Shown here one piece after another: positions 6,506 to 21,929 of a DNA stretch of 64,000 bases; the first letter of the stretch is position 1; every line of letters begins with the position of its first letter. Under the pieces are notes generated by a model. The model was given only the letters and a program-made list of their open reading frames with translations. It made no database searches and was not told the origin of the DNA. Made by a program: the position numbers and the translations under genes. The stretch is taken from assembly GCA_018384375.1 (NCBI GenBank), contig JAHAYJ010000042.1, positions 1-64,000 of the forward strand. Reading direction: 5' to 3'. Source of the DNA: Lachnospiraceae bacterium (GTDB lineage: Bacteria; Bacillota; Clostridia; Lachnospirales; Lachnospiraceae).

Positions 6506-7019
6506 ATATGCCCATCAAATTCCTGAAACAGAGTTTCCTCCTGCTTGCGCATAAAAATTGTGAGAGAATCCTTCTGAAAACTGAGTTGAAATTTAATGCT
6601 CCCTACGCTGGAATCTATAACATGAACTTTGATATAGAGCGTGCCGTCGGCAAGCCATGCACCGCTTGCTGCACATTTAAAATCATAAATGGGCAGGATA
6701 CCTGATACAAGAAAGCCCAGTCCGAAATCTATTTGATATTTCTGATTCTCATAAGTAAAGGATAAGTGACCGACAGTATTGTTGCTGTCGGTTTTTTCTT
6801 TATCTCTATTGGAAAAAGAAATGCAGACATCCCTGTATCCGGTTTTACCGTAACAGAAAAGATAGTTCTTTCCACTAATTTGCTCCATGACCGGAGAAGA
6901 AATTTCCCCAGAAACAGGCGAGATTGCAAGCTTTGTAAGTGCATCCATATAGGAAGAAAAGGTACCTGAATGAATCGGCAGATAAGAGCTGCTGATATGG
7001 GGAAGAACTTCTTCATAGC
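6490..7019 (-). pseudogene. serine hydrolase (class C beta-lactamase family), 3' fragment only
   Basis: Only the C-terminal part of a beta-lactamase-related serine hydrolase remains, reading leftwards. The visible frame carries the accessory C-terminal domain common in gut Firmicute members (IDFGLGFLVSG, SGAWLADGTLYIKVHVIDSS, LTIFMRKQE..FQEFDG). The catalytic domain with the SxxK motif is absent: upstream the frame loses resemblance near 7015 and there the plus strand is clearly GH43 coding sequence. No plausible start codon or promoter remains ahead of the Met at 6948. The stop codon (6490-6492) lies inside the tail of the neighbouring diguanylate cyclase. It is a remnant of a deletion or of an assembly join. 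Confidence 0.7.
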
Positions 7020-7826
7020 GGGCATGGAAAACCGGTCTGTACCCAAAAGGGACAGTGGTATATGGTCTATCTGTGTGGAAGAAAACTGGAAAAAGATGGA
7101 GAAAGCTACAGTATTTTAGGAAGAGAAACTGCCCTTGATCCGATTACCTGGACAGCGGACGGATGGCCTATGGTCAATCAGCTAAAAGGACCTAGTGTCC
7201 TTCAAAAAAGACCGGATCTCAAGGAGTGGATCCCCTCCGGCAATCATTCGAAGGGAGAGTGGATGTGTCCAAGACCACCGGAATGTGGTGGCGTCAGGAT
7301 AGAGAACGGCACATTCGCAATTAAGGGAAGCAAAGCGCCCTTATCCAGTGTAAAGGCAAGAAATATATTATTGCGAAGACAGAATAGCTTTTCCTTTCGG
7401 GCAGAAGCGCTTCTCACCATGCCGGAATTAAAGGAAGGGCAGGAGGCCGGAATTACCTGTTACTATGATGAGAATACTTGGATCTGTTTTTATGTCGGGA
7501 AAAATCAGGATGGGTATTTTGTACAGGTAAAGGAACATATCGGGCATGAGGATATTTGCCATGAATGCCTTCACTTTAAGCAGGAGAACTCAGCAGGAAA
7601 TGAAATATTGCTTGAAGTAGTTACAAACAGATTTGAAAGAAGCTTTTTCTATGAACTGGAAGGGAAAAAACAGGCGGCAGGAAAGCTTGAAAATGTCTAT
7701 TATCTTTGTGATGAAGGGATTCGAATGGGGAAACGATTTACCGGAGCAATGGTTGGGATGTATGCTTATGCTGCTGACGAGGAATTGTGTGCAGTCTTTC
7801 AGAAATTTAGCTATATAGGGTTATAA
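7008..7826 (+). pseudogene. glycoside hydrolase family 43, 3' fragment only
   Basis: The C-terminal part of a GH43 beta-xylosidase/arabinosidase-type enzyme. The frame upstream of the Met at 7062 already matches the end of the catalytic propeller (SGHGKPVCTQKGQWYMVYL, then CGR and LGRETALDPITW, WTADGWPMVN), and it opens only after a TGA at 6993-6995. Downstream is the usual ~200-residue beta-sandwich accessory domain (SFSFRAEALL, AGITCYYDENTWICFYVG). Most of the five-bladed propeller and its catalytic acids are missing, along with any promoter. The Met at 7062 is internal to the original protein, so a 254-residue product from there would not be catalytic. The 5' end abuts the truncated serine hydrolase on the opposite strand. 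Confidence 0.8.
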
Positions 7827-7900: not shown

Positions 7901-9307
7901 TTAAAGGTTAAATCCAAAATATCTGACTGCATTATAGTAGGAGATGTCTTTCACAATTTCAGATAGCGTATCCATGTCTGCTGGAAATTCTCCGTTTTCA
8001 ACCATATCACCAATCAGATCGCAGAGAATCCTGCGGAAATACTCGTGCCTTGTGTAGGACAAAAAGCTTCTGGAGTCAGTCAGCATTCCAACAAAGCCGG
8101 AAAGATTCCCCAGATTTGCCAAGGAGAGCATCTGATTTTTCATGCCGATTTTATGGTCATTGAACCACCATGCGCTTCCCTGTTGAATCTTTGCGACAGC
8201 GGTGCTGTCCTGGAAGCAGCCGAGAATAGTTCCAATTGCTTCATTGTCGTTGGGATTCAGACTATAGATGATCGTTTTCGGAAGCGTATCATTCTTGACA
8301 AGGGCATTCAGAAAATCAGCCATCTGAGCAGAGGGGGCATAGTTATTGATGCAGTCATAACCGGTATCGGGACCAAGTTTTTCAAACATCAGTGTATTAT
8401 TATCACGCTTACAGCCGTAATGTAACTGCATAACCCAGCCACGTCTGCTGTATTCACCTCCGACAAACAACATAAAAGCTGTTTTGAATTTTAATTCTTC
8501 TTCACGAGTTACAGATCTGCCGGATATACGACCTTCAAAAATATGTTCAATCTCTTCATCGGAAGCAGGGGCATACATAACATATTCCAGTGCATGATCC
8601 GATACGCTACATCCCATGGAAGCAAAAAAGTCCATACGATTCTTTAAAGCTTCCTTAAGGGCGGAAAAGCTGTTTATTTTGATACCACTGACCTTGGAAA
8701 GTGTATTCAGATAGTCGGGATAATCCGGCTTTTCAATGTTCATTGCTTTATCGGGACGCCAAGCAGGCAGAACCTGAACAGTAAAGGTATCATCTGCGGC
8801 GATAGCTGCATGCCATTCCAGTGAGTCTACAGGGTCATCTGTAGTACAGATCAAAGTGACGTTTGATTGCTTGATCAGATTTCGAACACTCATGGAAGCC
8901 TGAGATAATTTTTCATTGCAAAGATTCCAAACCTCCTCAGCCGTATTTTTATTTAAGGTTCCGTGGTAGCCGAAATATCTTTGAAGCTCCAGATGGCTCC
9001 AGTGATAGAGGGGATTGCCGATTGCTTTTCCCAGAACCTCGGCCCACTTAAAGAATTTTTCCTTATCGGATGCATTACCGGTAATAAAGTGTTCGTCCAC
9101 ACCACAGGAACGCATAAAGCGCCACTTATAGTGATCACCGCCAAGCCAGACCTGAGTAATGTTGTCAAACTTGCGATCCTGCGCAATTTCCTTTGGATTG
9201 ATATGACAATGATAATCCAGAATGGGTGTTTTTTCAGCATAATCATGAAAAAGCTTCTGAGCAGTAGGAGTGGATAAAAGGAAATTTTCATCCATAAATG
9301 GTTTCAT
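7901..9307 (-). CDS. uxaC: uronate (glucuronate/galacturonate) isomerase UxaC
   Basis: Converts D-galacturonate to D-tagaturonate (and D-glucuronate to D-fructuronate), the first cytoplasmic step of uronate catabolism. 468 residues, normal for the family. The N-terminal metal-binding motif is visible (ILDYHCHINPKEIA) and the sequence follows UxaC throughout (WLGGDHYKWRFMRSCGV, LQLHYGCKRDNN in the form MQLHYG). It lies 19 bp after the LacI-type regulator on the same strand with an AGGAGGT site before ATG, so regulator and isomerase form one transcript. The next two pathway enzymes, UxaB and UxaA, are transcribed divergently. It ends at a shared bidirectional terminator. Confidence 0.95.
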   Translation of the reverse strand: MKPFMDENFLLSTPTAQKLFHDYAEKTPILDYHCHINPKEIAQDRKFDNITQVWLGGDHYKWRFMRSCGVDEHFITGNASDKEKFFKWAEVLGKAIGNPLYHWSHLELQRYFGYHGTLNKNTAEEVWNLCNEKLSQASMSVRNLIKQSNVTLICTTDDPVDSLEWHAAIAADDTFTVQVLPAWRPDKAMNIEKPDYPDYLNTLSKVSGIKINSFSALKEALKNRMDFFASMGCSVSDHALEYVMYAPASDEEIEHIFEGRISGRSVTREEELKFKTAFMLFVGGEYSRRGWVMQLHYGCKRDNNTLMFEKLGPDTGYDCINNYAPSAQMADFLNALVKNDTLPKTIIYSLNPNDNEAIGTILGCFQDSTAVAKIQQGSAWWFNDHKIGMKNQMLSLANLGNLSGFVGMLTDSRSFLSYTRHEYFRRILCDLIGDMVENGEFPADMDTLSEIVKDISYYNAVRYFGFNL

Positions 9308-9326: not shown

Positions 9327-10340
9327 TTATATTAATTTTGTTGTTGCTTTGTGAACTAATTCGCCGGAAAAAATAGTTTTCTGCGGCATTTCTTCTCCGT
9401 TTAGTGTCCCGATACAGGTTTTGACAAGCTGGGAACAAAGTGTTTCCAGATGGTTGTCAATGGATGTGATCTCAGGATCACTACAGGTGGTAAGAAGGGA
9501 GTTATTGTAACCTATGACTGACAAGTCGTCCGGAATGGAGCGGTGATGAAGCTTTGCATACTTAACAGCTCCGGTTGCAAGCATATCGTCAGATGCAAGA
9601 ACCGCATGAAATTCCAACCCTTTTTTATGCAGCTCAGTAAGAAGCTTACATACACCATCAATATCCTCATGACTTCCGTTAAAATACTGCTGGAACTGCT
9701 TATTGATCGGAATATCCTTCATAAGATATGCAGATTGATATCCGGTTAATTTCTTAATACCACTATAGGAAGTAGAATTATACAGATATAGAATATCGTG
9801 AATGCCATGATCCAGCAGGGAAAGCGTAACCTCCTGTGTAGCCTTAAAATCATCACACATGGTACAGTAAACCCCCGGACAGTCTAAATCCGCATTCAGC
9901 AGCATGATAGGTACCTGGGAGGCAGCATCCCGAATGTATTCATTATCACCTGACTGTGCCTCAATAAAATTAGAACCTACCATGATAACGGCATCTACCC
10001 GTTGGTCGAGCAGCATAGCAAGAGATGCTTTTTTGTCCTCCAGCTGATAACCGGTACAGCCAAGAACTGTGTGATATCCACCGCCTCGCAGATTTTTTTC
10101 GATATAATAAACTGCTTTGGCAAGATACAGGTCGGAACAATCAGCGCATAAAATGCCGACCGTGTTCATGGAATTCAAACCAAGCCCCCGGGCAAAAGCA
10201 TTGGGAGTATAGCCACATTGCTCGATCACGTCTAGTACTTTTTTGCGTGTTTTGGGTTTTACATTAGCGCTTCCGTTTAGGACTCTGGAAACAGTAGCAA
10301 TGGAAACCCCCGCTTGTTTGGAAATATCATAGATAGTCAA
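9327..10340 (-). CDS. LacI-family transcriptional regulator of the pectin/galacturonate locus
   Basis: N-terminal LacI helix-turn-helix (TIYDISKQAGVSIATVSRVL) and hinge, then a periplasmic-binding-protein-like effector domain with the usual ILCADCSD, DAVIMVGSNF and VIGYNNS elements. The chosen start is TTG at 10340, preceded by AAGGAG, which puts the first residues at the normal position for this family. The in-frame ATG at 10385 would add 15 unrelated residues, has no ribosome site and would begin inside an operator-like palindrome only about 13 bases after the predicted transcription start. It is co-transcribed with uxaC and divergent from uxaB. Likely a repressor released by a uronate intermediate and probably autoregulated; the effector is not visible from sequence. 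Confidence 0.85.
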   Translation of the reverse strand: MTIYDISKQAGVSIATVSRVLNGSANVKPKTRKKVLDVIEQCGYTPNAFARGLGLNSMNTVGILCADCSDLYLAKAVYYIEKNLRGGGYHTVLGCTGYQLEDKKASLAMLLDQRVDAVIMVGSNFIEAQSGDNEYIRDAASQVPIMLLNADLDCPGVYCTMCDDFKATQEVTLSLLDHGIHDILYLYNSTSYSGIKKLTGYQSAYLMKDIPINKQFQQYFNGSHEDIDGVCKLLTELHKKGLEFHAVLASDDMLATGAVKYAKLHHRSIPDDLSVIGYNNSLLTTCSDPEITSIDNHLETLCSQLVKTCIGTLNGEEMPQKTIFSGELVHKATTKLI

Positions 10341-10375: not shown

Positions 10376-10391
10376 ATGTAACCATTTACAT
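10376..10391. promoter_or_regulatory. operator-like palindrome of the lacI-uxaC promoter
   Basis: ATGTAA-ccat-TTACAT, a perfect 6-bp inverted repeat with a 4-bp spacer. It lies about 7 to 22 bases downstream of the predicted lacI transcription start and between that start and the TTG codon. Half-sites are identical to those of the palindromes before uxaB and pta; all three share a central CA. Confidence 0.6.
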
Positions 10392-10520: not shown

Positions 10521-10536
10521 ATGTAAGCACTTACAT
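10521..10536. promoter_or_regulatory. operator-like palindrome of the uxaB promoter
   Basis: ATGTAA-gcac-TTACAT overlaps the predicted transcription start of uxaB. All 16 bases are identical to the site before pta at 19659-19674. It resembles a CcpA cre box but has CA instead of CG at the centre. Confidence 0.65.
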
Positions 10537-10591: not shown

Positions 10592-12058
10592 ATGGAATTA
10601 TTATCAAGGAGTAAAACCGGCAAAAAGGAAAGACCGATCAAGGTCCTTCAGTTTGGAGAGGGAAATTTCCTGAGAGGATTTGTTGACTATATGATTGATA
10701 TTGCCAATGAGAAGGGAGAATTTGACGGAGACATTGTTCTGGTTAAGCCCATTGAATTTGGTACGCTTGATCGTTTCCGCGCCCAGGAATGCCAGTATAC
10801 GGTTTCCTTAAGGGGGATTGTAGATGGAAAGCCTGCTGTTCTGAACCGAATTGTTACAAGTGTCGCAGATGTTGTAGCAGCTCATGAAGAATATGAGAAA
10901 TACAGCAGCTATGCAAAGCTTGATACCTTGAGATATATTGTTTCCAACACAACAGAAGCAGGAATTGTTTACGATGAGAGTGATAAATTGGAAATGAATC
11001 CGCCCAAGAGCTTTCCGGCGAAACTGGCGAAATTCCTTTATGAAAGATATCAGTATTTTAACGGAGCAATGGACAAGGGGCTGGTAATGCTTCCTGTTGA
11101 ACTGATTGATGATAACGGCATTCACCTGAAAGAATGTGTTCTGAAACAGGCCGATAACTGGAATCTTGAGGATAGCTTTAAGAAATGGGTGAATGAAGCC
11201 TGTATATTCACATCTACCCTGGTCGACAGAATCATTACCGGTTATCCCAGAGAAGAAGATAAGAAGCTTTGGGAAGAATGGGGCTATCGGGATGAACTGA
11301 TCGTGACCGGTGAACCATTTGCACTCTGGGTAATTGAAAGCGAAAAGGACATCAGAGGAGAGTTCCCGCTTGATAAGGCAGGTCTTCCTGTTATATTTAC
11401 AGACAATCAGAAGCCTTACAAGCAAAGAAAGGTTCGTATTTTGAATGGTGCACATACATCGTTTGTGCTTGCTTCCTATCTGGCCGGAAACGATACAGTG
11501 CTGGAATCCATGAAGGATGAACTGATATACAAATTCATGCGCAGTACAATTTTTGATGAAGTAATTCCTACATTGTCATTGCCTGAAAAAGACCTGGTTG
11601 ATTTCGCAGAAGCTGTCACAACCAGATTCAACAATCCTTATGTGAAGCATGCGTTACTTTCAATTTCCCTAAATTCTGTCTCTAAATGGAGAGCAAGGTG
11701 TATGCCGAGCTTCCTCGGGTATATTGACAAGACGGGTACACTGCCGAAGCACTTAACCTTTTCTCTGGCAGCACTAATGGCATTCTATCAGGGTACAGAG
11801 ATCCGTGACAAGGCACTTATCGGACATAGAAACGGAGAAGAATATAATATTATGGATGATGATGCTGTGCTGAAATATTTTGCAGCAAACAGCACAAAGC
11901 CATCGAAAGAATTTGCACATGGTTTCCTTAGCAACACAGCTTTCTTCGGTCAGAATCTGACACAAATTGAGGGGCTTGAGGATACGGTTGCAGCATACCT
12001 GGATGAAATTGCAAATAAAGGTATGAGAAAGACCATGGAGGATAATTTTAGATCATGA
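10592..12058 (+). CDS. uxaB: tagaturonate reductase (altronate oxidoreductase) UxaB
   Basis: NADH-dependent reduction of D-tagaturonate to D-altronate, second step after UxaC. 488 residues of the long-chain mannitol dehydrogenase family. The N-terminal nucleotide-binding segment starts VLQFGEGNFLRGFVDYMID, characteristic of UxaB/UxaD-type enzymes, and the C-terminal domain contains the RKVRILNGAHT motif with conserved Lys/Asn/His of this family. First gene of the rightward operon, with its own promoter and palindrome and an AGGAGAAA site. Its TGA overlaps the uxaA start (ATGA), indicating translational coupling. Confidence 0.95.
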   Translation: MELLSRSKTGKKERPIKVLQFGEGNFLRGFVDYMIDIANEKGEFDGDIVLVKPIEFGTLDRFRAQECQYTVSLRGIVDGKPAVLNRIVTSVADVVAAHEEYEKYSSYAKLDTLRYIVSNTTEAGIVYDESDKLEMNPPKSFPAKLAKFLYERYQYFNGAMDKGLVMLPVELIDDNGIHLKECVLKQADNWNLEDSFKKWVNEACIFTSTLVDRIITGYPREEDKKLWEEWGYRDELIVTGEPFALWVIESEKDIRGEFPLDKAGLPVIFTDNQKPYKQRKVRILNGAHTSFVLASYLAGNDTVLESMKDELIYKFMRSTIFDEVIPTLSLPEKDLVDFAEAVTTRFNNPYVKHALLSISLNSVSKWRARCMPSFLGYIDKTGTLPKHLTFSLAALMAFYQGTEIRDKALIGHRNGEEYNIMDDDAVLKYFAANSTKPSKEFAHGFLSNTAFFGQNLTQIEGLEDTVAAYLDEIANKGMRKTMEDNFRS

Positions 12059-13533
12059 CAATTTTGAAAATACATGAAAATGATAACGTGGCTGTTGCAA
12101 TCGATACAATCCCGGCGGGAGAACAGGTAGAGGCTGGAGGCGAAAAGCTGACTGCACTTCAGGAGATTCCTGCAGGCCATAAGATTGCACTTTGCAACAT
12201 CGGTGAGGGAGAATCGGTCATTAAGTATGGTTGCCCGATCGGAAATGCAAAGGAAGACATTAAAAAGGGCGACTGGGTTCACACCCATAATGTAAAAACA
12301 GGACTTGGTGACCTGCTGAATTATACCTATCAGCCTGTTAATGCAAAAATGCCGACGGGAAAGGAAGTTTTTTTTCAAGGCTTTGAGCGACCAGACGGTA
12401 AAGTTGGTGTGAGAAATGAAATCTGGGTGATACCTACGGTTGGCTGTGTAAATAATGTGGCTAATGCGATTTCAAGAGCCGCAAACGCTTATGTGAAAGG
12501 AAGTGTGGAGGAAGTAATTTCCTTTCCGCATCCTTATGGCTGTTCCCAGATGGGAGATGATCAGGAGCATACAAGAATGATCCTTGCTGATTTGATCAAT
12601 CACCCCAATGCAGGAGGCGTATTGGTTCTTGGGCTTGGTTGTGAAAACAGCAATATTGATGTATTGAAGTCCTATATTGGCAGTTATGATGAAAACAGAG
12701 TGAAATTTTTGGTTTGTCAAGAATCAGAAGATGAGATTGCAGATGGCGTCGAACTAGTTAAAGAACTGATTGCGTATGCAGCACCCATGAAGAGGGTTCC
12801 CGTCAGTGCATCAAAGCTGATCATTGGCCTAAAATGTGGCGGAAGTGATGGCTTTTCAGGTATTACTGCTAATCCCCTGGTTGGTAAATTTTCAGATCTT
12901 TTAATCGGAGCTGGCGGTACTACTATTTTGACAGAAGTGCCGGAAATGTTTGGCGCAGAGACACTTTTAATGAACCGGTGCGAAAATGAAGCACTTTTTG
13001 ATAAGACAGTAACACTGATCAATGATTTCAAAAACTATTTTAAAAGTCATAATCAGACGATTTATGAAAATCCGTCTCCCGGAAACAAGAAAGGAGGAAT
13101 CTCCACACTTGAGGATAAATCACTTGGCTGTACTCAGAAATCCGGCAGTGCTCCGGTAAGAGGTGTGCTTCATTACGGAGAGAGGGTGAGCACGTCGGGA
13201 CTGAATCTTTTATGTGCACCGGGAAACGATCTTGTGGCAGCTACTGCACTGGCAGCAAGCGGTGCACATATTGTTTTGTTTACCACCGGTAGGGGAACCC
13301 CTTTTGCTTCGCCGGTACCAACTATGAAAATTTCCAGCAATTCCAAACTGGCAGATCACAAGTCTAACTGGATCGATTTTAATGCCGGAGTGTTGGTGGA
13401 AGGGAAAGCTATGGACGAGACAGCCCGGAAGCTGTTTGATTTTGTGATGGAAATTGCTTCCGGCAGAAAGGTCTGCAGTGAAGAGGCAGGCTTCCACGAC
13501 ATGGCGATTTTTAAACAGGGTGTAACCCTATAA
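12055..13533 (+). CDS. uxaA: altronate dehydratase UxaA
   Basis: Dehydrates D-altronate to 2-keto-3-deoxygluconate, third step of galacturonate catabolism, using a metal centre. 492 residues, full length: a short N-terminal SAF-like domain (VHTHNVKTGLGD near residue 80) followed by the catalytic region (FERPDGKVGVRNEIWV, PHPYGCSQMGDDQEHT, GLGCENSNID, GLKCGGSDGFSG, FTTGRGTPFASPVPTMKI). Start ATG overlaps the uxaB stop by 4 bp. The genes for the following steps, KDG kinase and KDPG aldolase, are not in the window. Confidence 0.95.
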   Translation: MTILKIHENDNVAVAIDTIPAGEQVEAGGEKLTALQEIPAGHKIALCNIGEGESVIKYGCPIGNAKEDIKKGDWVHTHNVKTGLGDLLNYTYQPVNAKMPTGKEVFFQGFERPDGKVGVRNEIWVIPTVGCVNNVANAISRAANAYVKGSVEEVISFPHPYGCSQMGDDQEHTRMILADLINHPNAGGVLVLGLGCENSNIDVLKSYIGSYDENRVKFLVCQESEDEIADGVELVKELIAYAAPMKRVPVSASKLIIGLKCGGSDGFSGITANPLVGKFSDLLIGAGGTTILTEVPEMFGAETLLMNRCENEALFDKTVTLINDFKNYFKSHNQTIYENPSPGNKKGGISTLEDKSLGCTQKSGSAPVRGVLHYGERVSTSGLNLLCAPGNDLVAATALAASGAHIVLFTTGRGTPFASPVPTMKISSNSKLADHKSNWIDFNAGVLVEGKAMDETARKLFDFVMEIASGRKVCSEEAGFHDMAIFKQGVTL

Positions 13534-13559: not shown

Positions 13560-14663
13560 ATGAAAGTAGAAAACTATATCAGAGAATATTTGACCGGATA
13601 TCAGAATTATAAGGACTACTGGAATTACGAAGATGGTTGTGTCCTGATCGGGGCAAGGCTGCTCTATGAAGCTACCGGTGAGAAAGCTTACTTTGCGTTC
13701 ATCGATACATACCTAAAACACTTTGTCATGGATGATGGAACAATTGCGCATTATCAGACCGGTAAATTCAATATTGACAGTATCAATTCGGGCAAAATCC
13801 TCTTTTTCATGTACGAAAAAACCGGTGAGGAAAAATATCGTAAGGCAATCGAAGTCGTTATGGATCAGCTCAGGAACCAGCCAAGATGCAAATGTGGAAG
13901 CTTTTTTCATAAGCAGTTGTATCCGGATCAGATCTGGCTTGACGGCCTTTACATGGCACAACCTTTTTATATGGAATATGAAACGAAGTATGATAAAAAG
14001 AAGCAATATAACGATATTATTAAACAGTTTGAAAATGTGCAAAAATATCTGTATGATAAAGAAAAGGGACTTTGCTATCATGCTTGTGACGAGGCGAAGG
14101 TGCAGTTTTGGGCCAATAAGGAGACCGGCTGTTCTCCCAATTTCTGGTTGCGCAGCATGGGCTGGTATTTAATGGCACTCGTTGATACGATGGATGCCAT
14201 GAGCATAGAAATCTATGAACAATACAGAAAGCTTCAGGATATCTTTAAGCAGGTGTTGAAAGGAATCCTTCGTTATCAGGATGAAAAGACCGGATTGTTT
14301 TATCAGGTGATTGACAGGAATGATGTGGAAGAAAATTACCTTGAAACATCAGGCAGTGCTATGGTAGGATATGCAATTATGAAAGCCTGTCGAATGGGAA
14401 TTCTGCTGAAAGAAAAGTATGAGCCGATCGGAACAGGTATCTTTGAGAGTCTGGTAGAAAACAAGCTCCAGGAAAAAAGCGGCTCCTATCATCTGACGGA
14501 TATCTGCGAAATGGCAGGGCTTGGACCGGAAAACCGGCGGGAAAGGGACGGAAGTGTTGCTTATTATCTTTCTGAGAGAATCGTAGATGATGACCCGAAG
14601 GGTGTGGGCCCTTTTATGATGGCATATGCACAGTATTTACAGCTAAAAAAGGAAATGCGATAA
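13560..14663 (+). CDS. GH105 unsaturated rhamnogalacturonyl/galacturonyl hydrolase
   Basis: YteR/YesR-type hydrolase that removes the 4,5-unsaturated uronic acid from the non-reducing end of pectin oligosaccharides made by lyases. 367 residues forming the expected (alpha/alpha)6 barrel pattern. Visible hallmarks are WNYEDGCVLIGARLLYE near the N terminus, DQIWLDGLYMAQPF with Asp128 in the place of the family's catalytic acid, and FWLRSMGWYLMALVD. No signal peptide, so it acts in the cytoplasm on imported oligomers. 26 bp after uxaA. Whether it prefers unsaturated galacturonyl or rhamnogalacturonyl ends cannot be told here. Confidence 0.9.
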   Translation: MKVENYIREYLTGYQNYKDYWNYEDGCVLIGARLLYEATGEKAYFAFIDTYLKHFVMDDGTIAHYQTGKFNIDSINSGKILFFMYEKTGEEKYRKAIEVVMDQLRNQPRCKCGSFFHKQLYPDQIWLDGLYMAQPFYMEYETKYDKKKQYNDIIKQFENVQKYLYDKEKGLCYHACDEAKVQFWANKETGCSPNFWLRSMGWYLMALVDTMDAMSIEIYEQYRKLQDIFKQVLKGILRYQDEKTGLFYQVIDRNDVEENYLETSGSAMVGYAIMKACRMGILLKEKYEPIGTGIFESLVENKLQEKSGSYHLTDICEMAGLGPENRRERDGSVAYYLSERIVDDDPKGVGPFMMAYAQYLQLKKEMR

Positions 14664-14714: not shown

Positions 14715-16268
14715 ATGGAACTCAAACTTGTCATGAAGTCGGCGAGAAGCGCAGTGATTGAAATTGCTGATGGAGGAATTTATTCCACAAAGGAGAAGTA
14801 TCAGATCTTTGTGAATCATGTTTTTGTGAAGGAGACGGAAACAGTCATCACTTCGCTGTATGATTTAAAGCCTGAAACTTCATATGAGGTAGTGATTAAG
14901 GGAAGTAGTGAAGAAGAAAAGCTATCCTTTACCACAGATTATGAATTTGTCACTTTAAATGTAAAGGAGTTCGGTGCAAAGGGAGACGGTATACAGGATG
15001 ATACAAAGTTTATTCAGGCTGCCATTCTTTCCTGCCCGGAAGAAAGCAGAGTGCTGATCCCGAAAGGAACCTATCTGATTACAAGTCTTTTCCTAAAAAG
15101 CAATATAAGGATTGAGATTGCAAAGGATGCGGTTCTGCTTGCAAGTACGCAGCGCCATGCCTATCCTCAATTTCCTGCTCTGATCGAAAGTTATGATGAA
15201 AAAGAGGAATATAATCTCGGAACATGGGAAGGAAATCCGCTCCCTATGTTTGCAGGAATCATAACCGGAGTTCATGTTCAAAATGTATTGATTTACGGAG
15301 AAGGGTTAATCAACGGGAATGCTTCTAAGGAAAACTGGTGGAAGGAACCTAAGGTAATGAAGGGGGCTTTCAGGCCCCGTATGTTTTTTATCAATCATTG
15401 TGAAAGGATTACACTTCAGGGAATCCGGTTTTGTAACAGTCCTTCCTGGACGCTGCACCCTTACTTCAGTAATAAACTGAAATTCTATAACCTTACCATA
15501 GAAAACCCCAGCGATTCACCAAATACGGACGGATTGGATCCGGAGTCCTGCAAAGAAGTTGAGATTGCCGGAATTCGTTTTTCCTTAGGAGATGATTGTA
15601 TCGCTGTAAAGTCAGGGAAAATTTATATGGGAAAGAAGTATAAGACACCTTCTGAGAATATTCATATCAGGCAGTGCCTGATGGAAAATGGGCATGGCGC
15701 TGTAACAATCGGAAGTGAGATGGCGGGTGGAGTTAAAAATCTTGTGGTAGAGGATTGCCTTTTCTCCCATACGGATAGAGGCCTTCGCATAAAGACTAGA
15801 AGGGGAAGAGGTGAGGATGCTGTGCTTGATCAGATCATATTCAGGAAAATCAAGATGGATCATGTGATGACTCCGTTTGTGGTCAACAGCTTTTACTTCT
15901 GCGATCCGGACGGAAAGACAGAGTATGTGCAAAGTCGTCAATGGTTGCCTGTGGATGAAAGGACACCTAATATCAAACGCCTTGCCTTTGAAGATATTGA
16001 TGCAGAAAATTGTCATGTTGCAGCCGCTTTTTTTGACGGTCTACCCGAGCAGAAAATTGAGGAAATTGTAATGCGGAATATTTCTGTTTCCTATGCTGAA
16101 AAACCAAAATGTGACGTGCCGGCAATGTCCTCCGGGGTAGAGGCATGCAGTCTGAAAGGAATTTATGCAAGTAATGTAAAACACTTAATTTTGGAAAATG
16201 TCTCTATTGTGGGTCAAAAAGGCGATGCCATAACAGTAAACGAAGTGGATGAACTGACAGAAGGATAA
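14715..16268 (+). CDS. GH28 polygalacturonase/exo-galacturonidase, cytoplasmic
   Basis: Hydrolyses alpha-1,4-linked galacturonate in pectin oligomers. 517 residues: an N-terminal ~75-residue beta-rich module, probably fibronectin-III-like (ITSLYDLKPETSYEVVI), then a right-handed beta-helix beginning NVKEFGAKGDGIQDDT. All four GH28 signatures are present: NTDG (270-273), GDDC with Asp293/Asp294, GHG with His327, and RIK (358-360). There is no signal peptide, pointing to intracellular action and to exo activity on short oligomers, though mode of attack is inference. Follows GH105 by about 50 bp with an intervening hairpin. Confidence 0.93.
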   Translation: MELKLVMKSARSAVIEIADGGIYSTKEKYQIFVNHVFVKETETVITSLYDLKPETSYEVVIKGSSEEEKLSFTTDYEFVTLNVKEFGAKGDGIQDDTKFIQAAILSCPEESRVLIPKGTYLITSLFLKSNIRIEIAKDAVLLASTQRHAYPQFPALIESYDEKEEYNLGTWEGNPLPMFAGIITGVHVQNVLIYGEGLINGNASKENWWKEPKVMKGAFRPRMFFINHCERITLQGIRFCNSPSWTLHPYFSNKLKFYNLTIENPSDSPNTDGLDPESCKEVEIAGIRFSLGDDCIAVKSGKIYMGKKYKTPSENIHIRQCLMENGHGAVTIGSEMAGGVKNLVVEDCLFSHTDRGLRIKTRRGRGEDAVLDQIIFRKIKMDHVMTPFVVNSFYFCDPDGKTEYVQSRQWLPVDERTPNIKRLAFEDIDAENCHVAAAFFDGLPEQKIEEIVMRNISVSYAEKPKCDVPAMSSGVEACSLKGIYASNVKHLILENVSIVGQKGDAITVNEVDELTEG

Positions 16269-16309: not shown

Positions 16310-17155
16310 ATGCAGATTGGATTGCGGTTACACGATGCTGCAAAGCTGCCCATCGAAGAACGACTTCAGGAAGTAAGAAAGCAGGGGTTTACCTGTGTGC
16401 ATCTGGCACTTTCCAAGGTGATGCCGCCGGAGCTGGCAAGTGCAGAAGCATTAACGCCTGGATATGCAATGTATTTAAAAAATCTATTTGAAAAAAATGA
16501 GCTTGCGATTGCTGTGCTTGGATGCTACCTAAATCTTGCCACACCGGACGAGGGAAAGCTGCAGGAATTTGTCGAGAAATATAGAACACATATTCGCTTT
16601 GCTTCGCAGCTTGGCTGCGGTGTGGTGGGAACGGAAACAGGGGCGCCTAACACAGAGTACAAATTTGAGCCTGCCTGTCATAGTGAGGAGGCACTGGAAC
16701 TGTTTATAGAAAGACTTCGGCCTATTGTAAAATATGCGGAGAAAATGGGTGTGATTTTTGCCATAGAACCGGTATGGAAGCATATTGTATGTAATCCCAA
16801 ACGTGCAAGAATGGTATTAGATGCTATTGATTCTCCTAATCTTCAGATCATTCTGGACCCGGTAAATCTTCTTGACATTAGTAATTACGAGAATCAGATT
16901 GAAATAGTAGATGGGGCAATCGAACTTCTCGGAAAAGATGTATCGGTGGTTCATCTGAAGGATTTTGTGGTAGAGGATGGAGGGCTGAAATCGGTAGCAG
17001 CCGGAACCGGTCAGATGAATTATGAAAGCATATTAAAATTTATCAAGAAGAGAAAACCCTTTATCCACACAACATTGGAAAATACAGTGCCTGCAAATGC
17101 AGTGCAGGCAAAGAATTATATCTTGGAAAGATATCAACAGATATCTGTTTCTTAA
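16310..17155 (+). CDS. TIM-barrel sugar isomerase/epimerase (AP endonuclease family 2)
   Basis: 281-residue protein of the xylose-isomerase-like TIM-barrel fold used by sugar-phosphate isomerases/epimerases. Metal-ligand-like acidic and His residues occur at the expected strand ends (GTETGAPN, FAIEPVWKHI, LDPVNL, VVHLKDF, TLEN). A clean GGAGGAATT site precedes ATG 16310. It ends the rightward pectin operon, so it probably interconverts a sugar or uronate made by the upstream enzymes. The exact substrate cannot be assigned; no KduI or KduD is present, so it might fill such a step. Its TAA overlaps the stop codon of the convergent pectinesterase. Confidence 0.75.
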   Translation: MQIGLRLHDAAKLPIEERLQEVRKQGFTCVHLALSKVMPPELASAEALTPGYAMYLKNLFEKNELAIAVLGCYLNLATPDEGKLQEFVEKYRTHIRFASQLGCGVVGTETGAPNTEYKFEPACHSEEALELFIERLRPIVKYAEKMGVIFAIEPVWKHIVCNPKRARMVLDAIDSPNLQIILDPVNLLDISNYENQIEIVDGAIELLGKDVSVVHLKDFVVEDGGLKSVAAGTGQMNYESILKFIKKRKPFIHTTLENTVPANAVQAKNYILERYQQISVS

Positions 17156-18162
17156 GGACACCAGCCGTCAATGCCGCATAAAACCTTCTCTTTCGCATAA
17201 AAAGAGGCCTCAGTATCCGACAGCTGATGTACGAAAGGTGCACGGAAGGAAGACTCTGTTGCGTTTCCGGGTCCATAGCTTTGATATTCTGCATAGAAGC
17301 AGTTTTTGCGAGCATTTGGCTTGTTCCAGTCATGGAAACCTTCGGGTCTGATATGCGGGCCAAGATAACAGGATAAAAGCACGGTCCTAGCATAATCCCG
17401 CCATGGCCTTCCGAGATAAACACTCTTTTCAGGGACTGTGCCCGTAAAACGGCAGTTGTGAAATACGTAGCCGTATGGATATCCCTCCGGAGTGGACGCA
17501 GCTGTAGCGTAACCGTAAATTGGGGTATTCCCGTCGCTGTCCGGCGTAAGCTCTTCGGAGGCTACGGAAGCAATCTCACAGCGCTCAAAATAGGCTGTGG
17601 CACTTCCGAAAATGAAGTCAATGTCCCCACAGATATAGCAGCTTTCATAGCATTGCCGACCAACGATTCGCTCGGCAAACTCTTTGGGACCGGTAAAGCC
17701 TCCGGGAGATAAAGGAGCAGGCGGCAAGGGCCCGGTAAAAAGCGTATCCTGAAAGCTTTCAAGTCTGCAGTTTCTGACCAGGATCCTGTCACCGTCTGCA
17801 TAGAGTGCAATAGCCTGGCCTGCCTTGGAGCGGGGGAAGGAGGCATTGCGAATTGTTAGATTTTGCAGAGTAATATCATGACTGTCAAGAAACATGGTAT
17901 AGGAACGGAAAGTACCTTTCCTGGAACCGTCCGACATAAGCTGTGTGGCGCAGTCATCATAGGTGATGATTGTAGTTTCGGCATTTTCACCGATCAGTGT
18001 GATAAATGGTCTTTGAATCGTTACTTTTTCATGGTATATGCCTGCCTCCAGAAAAATTGTGACCGGTTCGCTGATATCTACAGAAATGGAAGCGATGGCT
18101 TTGGTTAATGAGTCAAAATGATCCTTACCGGTATTTGTTTTGGAAACATAGAGATTCTGCAT
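17152..18162 (-). CDS. CE8 pectinesterase (pectin methylesterase), cytoplasmic
   Basis: Removes methyl esters from homogalacturonan or its oligomers, giving methanol and free carboxylates so that GH28 can act. 336 residues, right-handed beta-helix. Family motifs are GQAIALY, ESFQDTLF with Asp139, GDIDFIFGSA with Asp182, and YLGRPWRDYAR with Arg252. There is no signal peptide, unlike secreted plant and Erwinia enzymes. It is convergent with the isomerase gene: the two stop codons overlap (TTAA at 17152-17155) and no terminator lies between them. It has its own predicted promoter overlapping the end of tmcAL. Confidence 0.92.
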   Translation of the reverse strand: MQNLYVSKTNTGKDHFDSLTKAIASISVDISEPVTIFLEAGIYHEKVTIQRPFITLIGENAETTIITYDDCATQLMSDGSRKGTFRSYTMFLDSHDITLQNLTIRNASFPRSKAGQAIALYADGDRILVRNCRLESFQDTLFTGPLPPAPLSPGGFTGPKEFAERIVGRQCYESCYICGDIDFIFGSATAYFERCEIASVASEELTPDSDGNTPIYGYATAASTPEGYPYGYVFHNCRFTGTVPEKSVYLGRPWRDYARTVLLSCYLGPHIRPEGFHDWNKPNARKNCFYAEYQSYGPGNATESSFRAPFVHQLSDTEASFYAKEKVLCGIDGWCP

Positions 18163-18228: not shown

Positions 18229-19506
18229 TTACGGAATGATAATAGGGGATTGTCTGAATTCATTCAGTACGGTCCCTCTTTTTTTGGCACAGACTGCTGC
18301 TTCATAGATAGAAGAGCAGAAAATATCCTGTTGTAAAAAAGCATATCCCTCCTTTGAGAGAAGTCTTTCGGCATCTGCCAGTTTTGTAATAAGAGGAATC
18401 CGGCTGTTATGTTTCATCTTTTTGAGAAGTGCAGAAGCACTTTCACGAAAACCGAGAAGTCTTGCGTAAGGAACATAAAGTTCCCTCTGGGCAAAGGGCT
18501 TCAGGTAAGTGTCAGGTGTCTTTGTATTGAGAAGAATGTGCAGCAATACACGGCTTATGCGGGTATAGGTAACATCCTTTGATTTCAACTGTTCACAGAA
18601 ATCGGTAAATCCCTTATAAGAAGGAAGGTGGCTGCAGATCTTGTCGGAAAGATCAGGGGTACAGTCGAGATATTCAGAAAATCCGCTTTTCGCTTCTGAT
18701 AACAGTTTATAGTGAAGAGGCAGAGAAAAATCATCCTCTTTCATAGGAGAGGCAGACTGCATTTCCGCCTGAAATGCCGCAAAGCAATCAGAAGGCATGT
18801 GGCTCTTGCAGGTTTCCAGGTCGCTGTCTTTCACATCAGATTCATCTTTTGAAAGGATATCGTAAGAAGCCTTACGGATTGCGCTGGCAGAGGAAAAATG
18901 ATCTTCTCTGGCAGTGAGAGTAAAATCATGATAATCGCTTCCCTTACGCTTTACCGTATAGGGCTGTATCGGACTTTGCGCGGCAAGGAGCGCTTTACAA
19001 TATTCGATTCCAAGAATGTTATTGGGAGAAGCAAGAAGCTTGGAGTACTTTTTGTCAGAAGCAGAAAGGGCTTTTACTCTTGCTTCGGGAAAAGAAACCC
19101 CTTTTTTCAGGAAAGAGAAAAGAGCAGACTGAAAGGCGCTATCTTCGTTGAACAGGAAGGAAGCGGCTTCTGTTATCAGGGGCAGATCTCCACATTCACT
19201 TCCAAAGGATAAAAGGTCAGCAGTCTGAAGGCTGTCAATTAGGGTAACGGCACCCTGTGCAAAAAATTCCGCACTGGAAACAGCGTACAAAGAAGGAAGC
19301 TCAATAACTGCATCTGCGCCTCCCAGCAGTGCCATTTTTGTACGAACATATTTATTACAGATAGCCGGAGCGCCCCTCTGAACGAAGTCTCCACTCATTA
19401 TTACCAGAACATAATCGGCACCGGTATTTTTACGAGTCTCGGAAATTTGATAGGAATGTCCCTTGTGAAAAGGGTTATATTCAGCAATAATAGCAGCAAT
19501 TTTCAT
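18229..19506 (-). CDS. tmcAL: tRNA(Met) cytidine acetate ligase TmcAL
   Basis: Acetylates the wobble cytidine (C34) of elongator tRNA-Met using acetate and ATP; formerly the YlbM/DUF795 family. The nucleotidyltransferase-like N terminus is visible (AAIIAEYNPFHKGHSYQI, then VIMSGDFVQRGAPAI and LGGADAVIELP). The start is placed at ATG 19506, which gives the conserved MKIAAIIAEYNPFH terminus and has an AGAGGT site; an upstream in-frame ATG at 19548 would add 14 poorly conserved residues. It lies head to head with pta-ackA, and since the enzyme consumes acetate the neighbourhood makes metabolic sense. Confidence 0.93.
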   Translation of the reverse strand: MKIAAIIAEYNPFHKGHSYQISETRKNTGADYVLVIMSGDFVQRGAPAICNKYVRTKMALLGGADAVIELPSLYAVSSAEFFAQGAVTLIDSLQTADLLSFGSECGDLPLITEAASFLFNEDSAFQSALFSFLKKGVSFPEARVKALSASDKKYSKLLASPNNILGIEYCKALLAAQSPIQPYTVKRKGSDYHDFTLTAREDHFSSASAIRKASYDILSKDESDVKDSDLETCKSHMPSDCFAAFQAEMQSASPMKEDDFSLPLHYKLLSEAKSGFSEYLDCTPDLSDKICSHLPSYKGFTDFCEQLKSKDVTYTRISRVLLHILLNTKTPDTYLKPFAQRELYVPYARLLGFRESASALLKKMKHNSRIPLITKLADAERLLSKEGYAFLQQDIFCSSIYEAAVCAKKRGTVLNEFRQSPIIIP

Positions 19507-19538
19507 AAAATAATGACCTCTGAACCTTATTTTAATCA

Positions 19539-19567
19539 AATGTACCATAAAATAATCGTGGAATCAA
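19539..19567 (-). promoter_or_regulatory. predicted promoter of tmcAL
   Basis: Minus strand: -35 TTGATT (19562-19567), 17-bp spacer, -10 TACATT (19539-19544). Confidence 0.4.
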
Positions 19568-19609: not shown

Positions 19610-19638
19610 TTGCCTGTAATAGGGGATTGAGATATAAT
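19610..19638 (+). promoter_or_regulatory. predicted sigma-A promoter of pta-ackA
   Basis: -35 TTGCCT (19610-19615), 17-bp spacer, consensus -10 TATAAT (19633-19638); start expected near 19645, upstream of the palindrome at 19659-19674. Confidence 0.6.
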
Positions 19639-19658
19639 TTTGGTAGAATTTGTATACA

Positions 19659-19674
19659 ATGTAAGCACTTACAT
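19659..19674. promoter_or_regulatory. operator-like palindrome in the pta leader
   Basis: ATGTAAGCACTTACAT, identical over 16 bases to the site at the uxaB start (10521-10536). It lies about 14 to 30 bases downstream of the predicted pta transcription start and 27 bp before the ATG, so a bound protein would block elongation. Confidence 0.65.
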
Positions 19675-19701: not shown

Positions 19702-20703
19702 ATGTCATATATTGACGTGATTAAAGAAAAAGCAAGAATGGACAGAAAAACGATTGTTCTGCCCGAAACAACCGACAAAAGAACATTGATTGCAGCTTCC
19801 AATATCATTAAAGAGGGGATTGCAGACATCATTATGATCGGGAATGAAGAAAAAATAATGGATGGTGCTGCCTGGTTGGAGATCGAGCTTGACGGCGTAA
19901 AGATCATTAATCCGGAAACCTGTGATAAACTGGATGAGTATGTAAATTTATTATATGAAACAAGAAAAAATAAGGGAATGACCCCTGAAAAAGCAAGGGA
20001 AATTCTTTTGACAGATAATCTGACCTTCGGTGTTATCATGGTAAAGGCTAATGATGCTGATGGTATGGTTGCAGGTGCCTGCCATGCAACGGCAGATACC
20101 CTACGACCTGCACTTCAGATTTTAAAGACTGCACCTGGGGTCAAACTGGTATCAGGCTTTTTCCTAATGTGTGTGCCTGACTGTCCTTATGGAGAAAACG
20201 GAACCTTCCTGTTTGCGGATTGCGGATTGAATCAGGATCCTACGGCGGAAGAGCTTGCAGCGATTGCAGACTCCTCTGCAAAGAGCTTTAAAAGCCTTGT
20301 AGGCGCCAAACCAATTATTGCAATGCTTTCCCATTCTACTAAGGGAAGCGCAAAGCATCCGTTGGTAGATAAGGTCGTAGAGGCAACAAGAATTGCCCAT
20401 GAGCAGTATCCACATCTGACGCTTGATGGGGAACTTCAAACGGATGCAGCGCTGGTTCCTCAGGTCGCAAAATCCAAGGCACCGGGAAGTGAAGTTGCCG
20501 GGAAAGCAAATGTGTTGATCTTCCCCAATCTGGATTGCGGAAATATAGGGTACAAGCTGGTACAGAGACTTGGGAATGCTGAAGCTTACGGCCCTATGCT
20601 TCAGGGAATTGCGAAGCCGGTTAATGACTTGTCAAGAGGCTGTTCATGGGAAGACATTGTAGGCGTTGTAGCATTAACTGCTGTACAGGCACAGCTGGTT
20701 TAA
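19702..20703 (+). CDS. pta: phosphate acetyltransferase Pta
   Basis: Converts acetyl-CoA and phosphate to acetyl phosphate and CoA in acetate fermentation. 333 residues from ATG 19702 (MSYIDVIKEKARMDRKTIVL), preceded by AAAGGAGAAGG; the longer open frame upstream runs through the promoter and palindrome and is not coding. Typical Pta segments are present: LPETTDKRTLIAAS, SHSTKGSAKHPLVDKV, DGELQTDAALVP, NVLIFPNLDCGNIGYKL. Followed after about 30 bp by ackA, forming the standard acetate/ATP-producing pair. Confidence 0.96.
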   Translation: MSYIDVIKEKARMDRKTIVLPETTDKRTLIAASNIIKEGIADIIMIGNEEKIMDGAAWLEIELDGVKIINPETCDKLDEYVNLLYETRKNKGMTPEKAREILLTDNLTFGVIMVKANDADGMVAGACHATADTLRPALQILKTAPGVKLVSGFFLMCVPDCPYGENGTFLFADCGLNQDPTAEELAAIADSSAKSFKSLVGAKPIIAMLSHSTKGSAKHPLVDKVVEATRIAHEQYPHLTLDGELQTDAALVPQVAKSKAPGSEVAGKANVLIFPNLDCGNIGYKLVQRLGNAEAYGPMLQGIAKPVNDLSRGCSWEDIVGVVALTAVQAQLV

Positions 20704-20732: not shown

Positions 20733-21929
20733 ATGAATATATTGGTAATAAACTGCGGCAGTTCCTCCTTAAAATTCCAGCTGATTGATGCGCAGTCGGA
20801 GAAGCTGATCGCCAAAGGGCTTTGTGAGAGAATCGGAATTGACGGAAGTCAGATGACCTATACACCGGATGGTGGTGAAAAATTAAAGACAGTTACTCCA
20901 ATGGCAGATCATACAGCTGCTATCAAACTTGTGCTTGATGCCCTGACTGATGAAAAGACTGGGGTGGTTAAAAGCCTTGATGAAATCGGTGCTGTAGGGC
21001 ATAGAATCGTTCACGGAGGTGAAAACTTTGCATCTTCCACCTTGATCACGGAGGAAGTGATAAGAGCAATAGAGGAGTGCAATGATCTGGCTCCCTTACA
21101 TAATCCGGCTAATCTGATTGGAATTCGTGCCTGCCAGGAGTTAATGGACGGAACACCTATGGTAGCAGTTTTTGATACGGCATTTCACCAGACAATGCCT
21201 GAGGAAGCCTATCTTTATGGAATTCCCTATCATTACTATGAGGATTACAAGGTCAGAAGATATGGTTTCCACGGAACCAGTCATTCCTATGTGTCTCATC
21301 AGGCAGCTAAAATATTGGGAAGGGCATATGAGGATCTGAAAATTATTGTATGCCATCTGGGAAACGGTGCAAGCGTTTCGGCAGTTAAAAACGGAAAATG
21401 TGTGGATACTTCCATGGGACTGACTCCCCTTGAGGGATTGATCATGGGAACCAGGTCCGGTGATCTGGATCCTGCTATCATTGAATTCCTTTGTAATAAA
21501 GAAGGAAAAGATGTACATGAAATGCTGAATATACTCAACAAAGAATCCGGTGTACTTGGCTTATCCGGAGGCTTTTCCTCCGACTTTAGGGATTTGGAGG
21601 AAGCGTTCGATGCGGGAAAAGAAAATGCGGTCAGAACCATGAAGACCTTTTCCTATCGTGTTGCAAAATACATTGGCGCCTATACGGCAGCAATGAATGG
21701 TGTTGATGCAATCTGTTTTACGGCCGGACTTGGGGAAAACAGTTCCTTTGTCAGAAATATGATCTGTTCTTATCTGAAGTATCTGGGGATCACGTTAGAT
21801 CAGGAAGCAAACAGTAAGCGCGGAGAAGATATGGTTATTTCAACAGAAGATAGCAGGACTAAAGTTTTGGTGATTCCTACCAATGAAGAACTTGCAATTG
21901 CAAGGGAAACCTATGCACTTGTTAAATAA
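20733..21929 (+). CDS. ackA: acetate kinase AckA
   Basis: Transfers phosphate from acetyl phosphate to ADP, yielding acetate and ATP; last step of the Pta-AckA pathway. 398 residues from ATG 20733, with an AGGAGAAG site, starting with the family motif NILVINCGSSSLKFQL. The second signature is also present (RYGFHGTSHSYVS), with HLGNGASVSAVKNG and the C-terminal FTAGLGENS. The in-frame ATG at 20646 lies inside pta and is not used. Acetate produced here can be the substrate of the neighbouring TmcAL. Confidence 0.97.
   Translation: MNILVINCGSSSLKFQLIDAQSEKLIAKGLCERIGIDGSQMTYTPDGGEKLKTVTPMADHTAAIKLVLDALTDEKTGVVKSLDEIGAVGHRIVHGGENFASSTLITEEVIRAIEECNDLAPLHNPANLIGIRACQELMDGTPMVAVFDTAFHQTMPEEAYLYGIPYHYYEDYKVRRYGFHGTSHSYVSHQAAKILGRAYEDLKIIVCHLGNGASVSAVKNGKCVDTSMGLTPLEGLIMGTRSGDLDPAIIEFLCNKEGKDVHEMLNILNKESGVLGLSGGFSSDFRDLEEAFDAGKENAVRTMKTFSYRVAKYIGAYTAAMNGVDAICFTAGLGENSSFVRNMICSYLKYLGITLDQEANSKRGEDMVISTEDSRTKVLVIPTNEELAIARETYALVK

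Follow-up and report, generated by a model that had tools for sequence, protein, structure and literature searches.

The closest described counterpart of the locus considered here is found in Clostridium phytofermentans, where a LacI protein was earlier proposed to link galacturonate genes with pta-ackA, and where growth on galacturonic acid is accompanied by more pta-ackA expression and more acetate (PMC5171806). The sites of this regulator, Cphy2742, are reported to lie at 22 genes; as the one at pta precedes the start site, the authors' suggestion for it is activation (PMC5171806). For cre, the paper quotes TGAAAGCGCTTTCA, and it states that pta and ackA are activated by CcpA in B. subtilis (PMC5171806). 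Other LacI-family regulators of glucuronate and galacturonate catabolism, comparable to the present one by description, are ExuR, KdgR, UxaR, and UxuR (PMC4052901); the words pta and ackA are absent from the main text of that paper. A literature search on pta-ackA together with LacI and galacturonic acid yielded PMC5171806 alone.

In the window, i.e., the whole 64-kb stretch of Lachnospiraceae DNA that was analysed, a lacI gene flanked by galacturonate genes lies upstream of a set of pectin genes and of pta-ackA, and three operator-like palindromes are found in this region. Our main reading, to which we give a probability of about 0.78, is that these palindromes are operators of the LacI protein encoded at 9327-10340, which would bind them to repress lacI-uxaC, uxaB-uxaA with the pectin genes, and pta-ackA, and would be released by a galacturonate-derived molecule. 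The features of the locus are as follows.

7901..9307, minus strand: uxaC, uronate isomerase (PF02614), downstream of lacI on the same strand
9327..10340, minus strand: LacI-family regulator with a CcpA-like DNA-binding domain (PF00356), between uxaC and uxaB
10376..10391, minus strand: related palindrome in the lacI leader (ATGTAAATGGTTACAT on the lacI strand), 13 bases 3' of the predicted -10 box
Just before the preceding site: predicted lacI promoter, TTGTAA-17-TATAAT (consensus match only)
Just before the following site: predicted uxaB promoter, TTGACT-17-TAAAAT (consensus match only)
10521..10536, plus strand: palindrome in the uxaB-uxaA leader, identical to that of pta, starting 5 bases 3' of the predicted -10 box
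10592..12058, plus strand: uxaB, tagaturonate reductase (PF01232/PF08125; NF002969 over cut-off)
12055..13533, plus strand: uxaA, altronate dehydratase type, galactarate/altronate dehydratase family (PF20629/PF04295/PF08666; cut-off of the galactarate dehydratase model TIGR03248 not reached)
13560..14663, plus strand: GH88/GH105-type unsaturated glucuronyl hydrolase (PF07470)
14715..16268, plus strand: GH28 polygalacturonase type (PF00295)
16310..17155, plus strand: xylose-isomerase-like TIM barrel protein (PF01261)
17152..18162, minus strand: pectinesterase (PF01095)
18229..19548, minus strand: YlbM-like HIGH nucleotidyltransferase (PF05636), divergent from pta
19610..19638, plus strand: predicted pta promoter, TTGCCT-17-TATAAT (consensus match only)
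19659..19674, plus strand: palindrome ATGTAAGCACTTACAT of the pta-ackA leader, operator-like; it begins 20 bases 3' of the predicted -10 box
19702..20703, plus strand: pta, phosphate acetyltransferase (PF01515; TIGR00651 over cut-off)
20733..21929, plus strand: ackA, acetate kinase (PF00871; TIGR00016 over cut-off), start taken at MNILVINCGSSS

An open frame at 7062-7826, beside the pectin cluster, matches PF17851 only, the concanavalin-like C-terminal domain of GH43 proteins, and no match to a GH43 catalytic domain was found within it.

The features shared with the Cphy2742 regulon are a LacI/GalR protein for the galacturonate genes (here encoded beside them), a cre-like palindrome that is also present in the leader of the regulator gene, sites located at the start sites of galacturonate genes or 3' of them (predicted ones in the present case), and a site at pta-ackA (PMC5171806). 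Two differences stand out: the 22 genes with sites contrast with three sites within one 9-kb stretch here, and at pta the local site is located downstream of the predicted promoter, 20 bases 3' of its -10 box, in a repressor geometry, rather than upstream of the start site (PMC5171806). Judged from its sequence, the local circuit is a further case of the C. phytofermentans type that has fewer sites and, at pta, a site downstream of the promoter; its novelty is limited because the idea is known from that related bacterium.

The 16-base palindrome ATGTAAGCACTTACAT is present exactly at 10521-10536, 55 bases 5' of uxaB, and again at 19659-19674, 27 bases 5' of the pta start codon at 19702, which bears out the recurrence 9 kb apart (9.1 kb by our count) from which the sequence-only reading started. 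A third site with both arms intact, ATGTAACCATTTACAT, lies at 10376-10391 in the lacI leader and differs from the 16-mer by two mismatches, and a fourth distinct site, with three mismatches, is found at 6933-6948. The window scan totals six matches, each perfect palindrome being counted on both strands, as compared with a mean of 0.56 and a maximum of 4 in shuffled sequence. The listed lacI frame starts at an ATG inside the 10376-10391 site; however, the start codon is probably the TTG at 10340, which follows an AAGGAG ribosome site, and this places the site in the leader, outside the coding region, where it is a probable autoregulatory operator of lacI.

The same promoter position, which the sequence-only reading had assumed for uxaB and pta, is only roughly borne out: all three sites begin 5-20 bases 3' of a -10 box, but the exact spacing differs, being 5 bases at uxaB, 13 at lacI, and 20 at pta. 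At uxaB and pta, the spacing is largely kept among relatives. It equals 5 bases in all six uxaB leaders examined, and in seven pta leaders it amounts to 19-20 bases in five genomes (the genome of the window, G025, G007, G017, and G026) and to 9-10 bases in two (G016 and G031), two values that differ by one helical turn. In the same comparison, between 41 and 144 bases separate the site from the start codon; it is thus the promoter, rather than the gene, that sets the place of the site, as expected of an operator. The two central bases are CA, TG, or CG at the lacI, uxaB, and pta sites of the compared genomes, with the exception of CT at pta of G026. Of note, a short palindrome, TGTATACA, abuts the pta operator at 19651-19658 and is likewise found in G025, G007, G017, and G026, which share the 19-20-base spacing; these five genomes are spread over different parts of the pta tree.

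A LacI-type dimer bound just 3' of a -10 box is expected to repress, which is why the three sites are read as one circuit. When inducer is lacking, LacI dimers would sit just 3' of the -10 boxes of lacI-uxaC, of uxaB-uxaA with the following pectin genes, and of pta-ackA, and would hinder transcription from these positions. Degradation of pectin would then supply a galacturonate-derived ligand taking LacI off all three sites, and galacturonate catabolism and the acetate branch would rise together. Galacturonate breakdown spends NADH at UxaB and provides little net reducing power. On this chemistry, acetate would be a natural end product, a physiological purpose that fits the circuit. Repression of pta-ackA may be partial, because strong repression in the absence of pectin would be costly to a fermenter.

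The search was extended to the whole genome of origin (3,111,859 bases in 125 contigs, 96.12% complete), as the sequence-only reading had advised. ATGTAANCANTTACAT has just three occurrences there, one in each of the lacI, uxaB, and pta leaders, and the same pattern read backwards has none. A scan with ATGTAANNNNTTACAT returned the same three perfect sites plus 11 with one arm mismatch, as against 10 such sites for its backward control, and the imperfect sites are therefore regarded as background. Allowing up to three mismatches to the 16-mer gave 18 forward and 14 reverse rows (7 and 12 for the backward control), corresponding to 24 places besides the three leaders; 22 of the 23 for which a locus was obtained coincide with open frames of 100 aa or more, the sole exception being L005, in a test that is crude, since the pta site itself (L003) overlaps such frames, one extending pta upstream and the other antisense. 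Similarly, 8 of the 11 one-arm-mismatch sites overlap a long frame, and of the three that do not (L263, L264, and L267), two share one sequence at two contig ends and the remaining one lies 26 bases before a gene. The two alike, L263 and L267, have the same sequence around AGGTAACTTATTACAT at the ends of contigs C12 and C123, where a repeat probably interrupted the assembly. A wider regulon in this genome was rejected: intact arms are confined to three leaders, and imperfect sites stay at control level (11 versus 10).

Distribution of the palindrome was then compared with that of the regulator in 37 genomes of the genus, including the genome of the window. At a threshold of E 1e-60, LacI matches of at least 64% identity are found in nine of them (the genome of the window included) and more distant ones (42-46%) in five, the other 23 having none. 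The pta gene was found in 34 (missing in G009, G035, and G024), and leaders of 330 bases were scored for each. Ten of the 34 hold at least 11 of the 12 arm bases and six hold a perfect site, in comparison with 25 and 1, respectively, of 6800 shuffled leaders, in agreement with the earlier view that a chance match is unlikely. The palindrome recurs at lacI, uxaB, and pta of related species carrying the LacI orthologue, and at pta the counts are 7 of 9 where the LacI is close (at least 64%), 2 of 4 where it is distant (44-46%), and 1 of 21 where no match exists. Fisher tests that disregard kinship among the genomes give p = 1.2e-4 for any LacI versus none and p = 6.5e-4 for a close LacI versus the rest; as related genomes are not independent, these values need correction for kinship. 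Pairing on the pta tree provides three well-supported independent contrasts. Over 200 pairings, with close LacI as the trait, contrasts agree wherever they differ (median p 0.25); when any LacI is counted, one contrary pair turns up in a few of the pairings (median p 0.5). The association between LacI and the pta site is consistent, yet it is not significant after kinship correction.

The well-supported clade of the window's own species (G000, G025, G015, G028, G032, and G033) illustrates this pattern, with the site in both LacI-bearing genomes and absent from the four without LacI, although the completeness of G032 and G033 is only 78% and 89%. Exceptions occur in both directions. No pta site is present in G005 and G027, whose LacI proteins are 68% and 64% identical, or in G030 and G029 (44% and 46%), and G012, in which LacI has no match, shows 11 of 12 arm bases at pta. 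The distant LacI loci of G030, G022, G024, and G060 carry the same palindrome before uxaA, and in G029 a copy with 11 of 12 arm bases separates uxaA from lacI. Finally, in G003 (L145) and G023 (L144), which have no LacI match, inspection by eye finds a half-intact GTGTAAGCGTTGAT where G016 has the perfect ATGTAAGCGTTTACAT; this looks like a decayed operator or an unfinished gain. An earlier set of pta leaders, overlapping the genus set and limited to the best 80 of 565 loci, contained six with at least 11 of 12 arm bases, three of them perfect.

Beyond the genus, 58 genomes of the family were searched for pta; LacI has a match at E 1e-75 in 38 of them and none in the other 20 (316 further genomes without a match were left out), and pta was obtained in 27. 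At least 11 of 12 arm bases are found at pta in 4 of 16 genomes with a LacI match and in 0 of 11 without. Of these four, the match of G364 was discounted for lying inside ylbM. In G250, another of the four, which belongs to another genus, the 11 of 12 site is located 203 bases before pta and upstream of the promoter, and since the sites of the present genus are downstream, both layouts exist. Among the best 29 of 55 LacI-bearing genomes, the genome of the window not being counted, lacI leaders reach 11 of 12 arm bases in eight cases, 10 in eight, and 9 in one. In the other twelve, all of genus g26 (L208-L219), whose LacI is 63-67% identical, no such palindrome was found in the 330 bases before lacI, with at most 8 of 12 arm bases.

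A candidate besides the local LacI is a CcpA-like global regulator, for which the pta site would be a cre box, with the uxaB site under the same catabolite control. The site has a cre-like look, with half-sites similar to those of B. subtilis cre boxes: TGTAAGCACTTACA is a single base away from a cre-type palindrome of the generic consensus. The sequence-only reading had placed one mismatch at the central CG, and the letters agree, the centre being CA at both identical sites. A CG centre does occur at pta of G016, G022, and G060; centres CA, TG, and CG are, however, interchangeable at corresponding sites. Resemblance to cre is also accounted for by the local LacI itself, whose DNA-binding domain gives a close alignment to CcpA proteins with known structures. 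The targets coincide too, since pta and ackA are stated to be activated by CcpA in B. subtilis (PMC5171806). Against this, none of the 37 genus genomes exceeds the curated TIGR01481 (CcpA) cut-off, as compared with 2 of 14 control genomes, a result that covers CcpA within the reach of the model, and the ten LacI-family proteins of the genome of the window score at most 195.6 of the 442.35 bits required. A global regulator should moreover have many sites, whereas a scan of this particular motif, as distinct from cre in general, finds three; the pta site also occurs in just one of 21 genus members without a match to the local LacI and lies 3' of the promoter, unlike the B. subtilis arrangement. 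CcpA as the regulator is thus not supported, and we consider this explanation very unlikely. Of the two shared regulators put forward from the sequence, it is the local LacI that the comparison favours, through the operator copy in its own leader, the recurrence with its orthologue, and the near absence of the site where LacI lacks a match.

The pta operator could also be real and act otherwise than by a simple block, with LacI activating pta-ackA or looping with the uxaB or lacI sites. Activation has the precedent suggested for C. phytofermentans, with a pta site upstream of the start site (PMC5171806), and the layout of G250, with the promoter downstream of the site, is of the same kind; the seven pta sites of the present genus begin 9-20 bases 3' of the -10 box, however, a position from which a LacI dimer should obstruct polymerase, and a loop spanning 9 kb is unlikely, making the proposal as a whole improbable in our estimation. 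A decidedly improbable variant is that another LacI-family paralogue of similar specificity uses the pta site, alone or with the local LacI. The genome of the window does hold 10 LacI-family genes, and the near match of G012 stands without a LacI match, but the nine others have no site with one arm mismatch or fewer within 1 kb upstream of any of them, and their recognition helices differ in sequence from that of the local LacI. As for a chance match or a repeated element devoid of regulatory meaning, two-copy short repeats are often due to chance and the leaders are A+T-rich; the perfect sites, found in 6 of 34 real leaders but in 1 of 6800 after shuffling, the lack of any resemblance by eye between the flanks of the two identical sites, and the constant spacing from the -10 box with which the site recurs in several species leave this account with next to no probability.

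If repression of all three transcription units by the local LacI is true, pectin-eating Lachnospiraceae would switch on acetate formation directly by the degraded sugar through one local repressor, plant fibre would be tied to a short-chain fatty acid by a defined and testable three-site circuit, and the C. phytofermentans proposal would extend to another genus with a different promoter layout. A broader and rather doubtful possibility is that a substrate-specific repressor gates the main end-product pathway in this genus: the galacturonate LacI would have taken over pta-ackA via a site 3' of the promoter, with an effect opposite in sign to that of B. subtilis CcpA, and the site would repeatedly have come or gone together with the regulator and would have shifted by one helical turn.

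The gene neighbourhood itself is shared by relatives. The lacI-uxaC pair adjoins ylbM-pta in G031, G005, and G027, and uxaC lies beside ylbM-pta-ackA at L077, L081, L086, L129, L144, L145, L076, and L115, several of these stretches being without uxaB, uxaA, or lacI. No lacI remnant was detected by tblastn, at E up to 1, in L077, L081, L086, L129, L144, or L145, where uxaC is beside ylbM-pta and lacI is not; the genome of L086 (G022) carries its distant LacI elsewhere on the contig. The association of galacturonate and acetate genes in one neighbourhood may be old in the genus.
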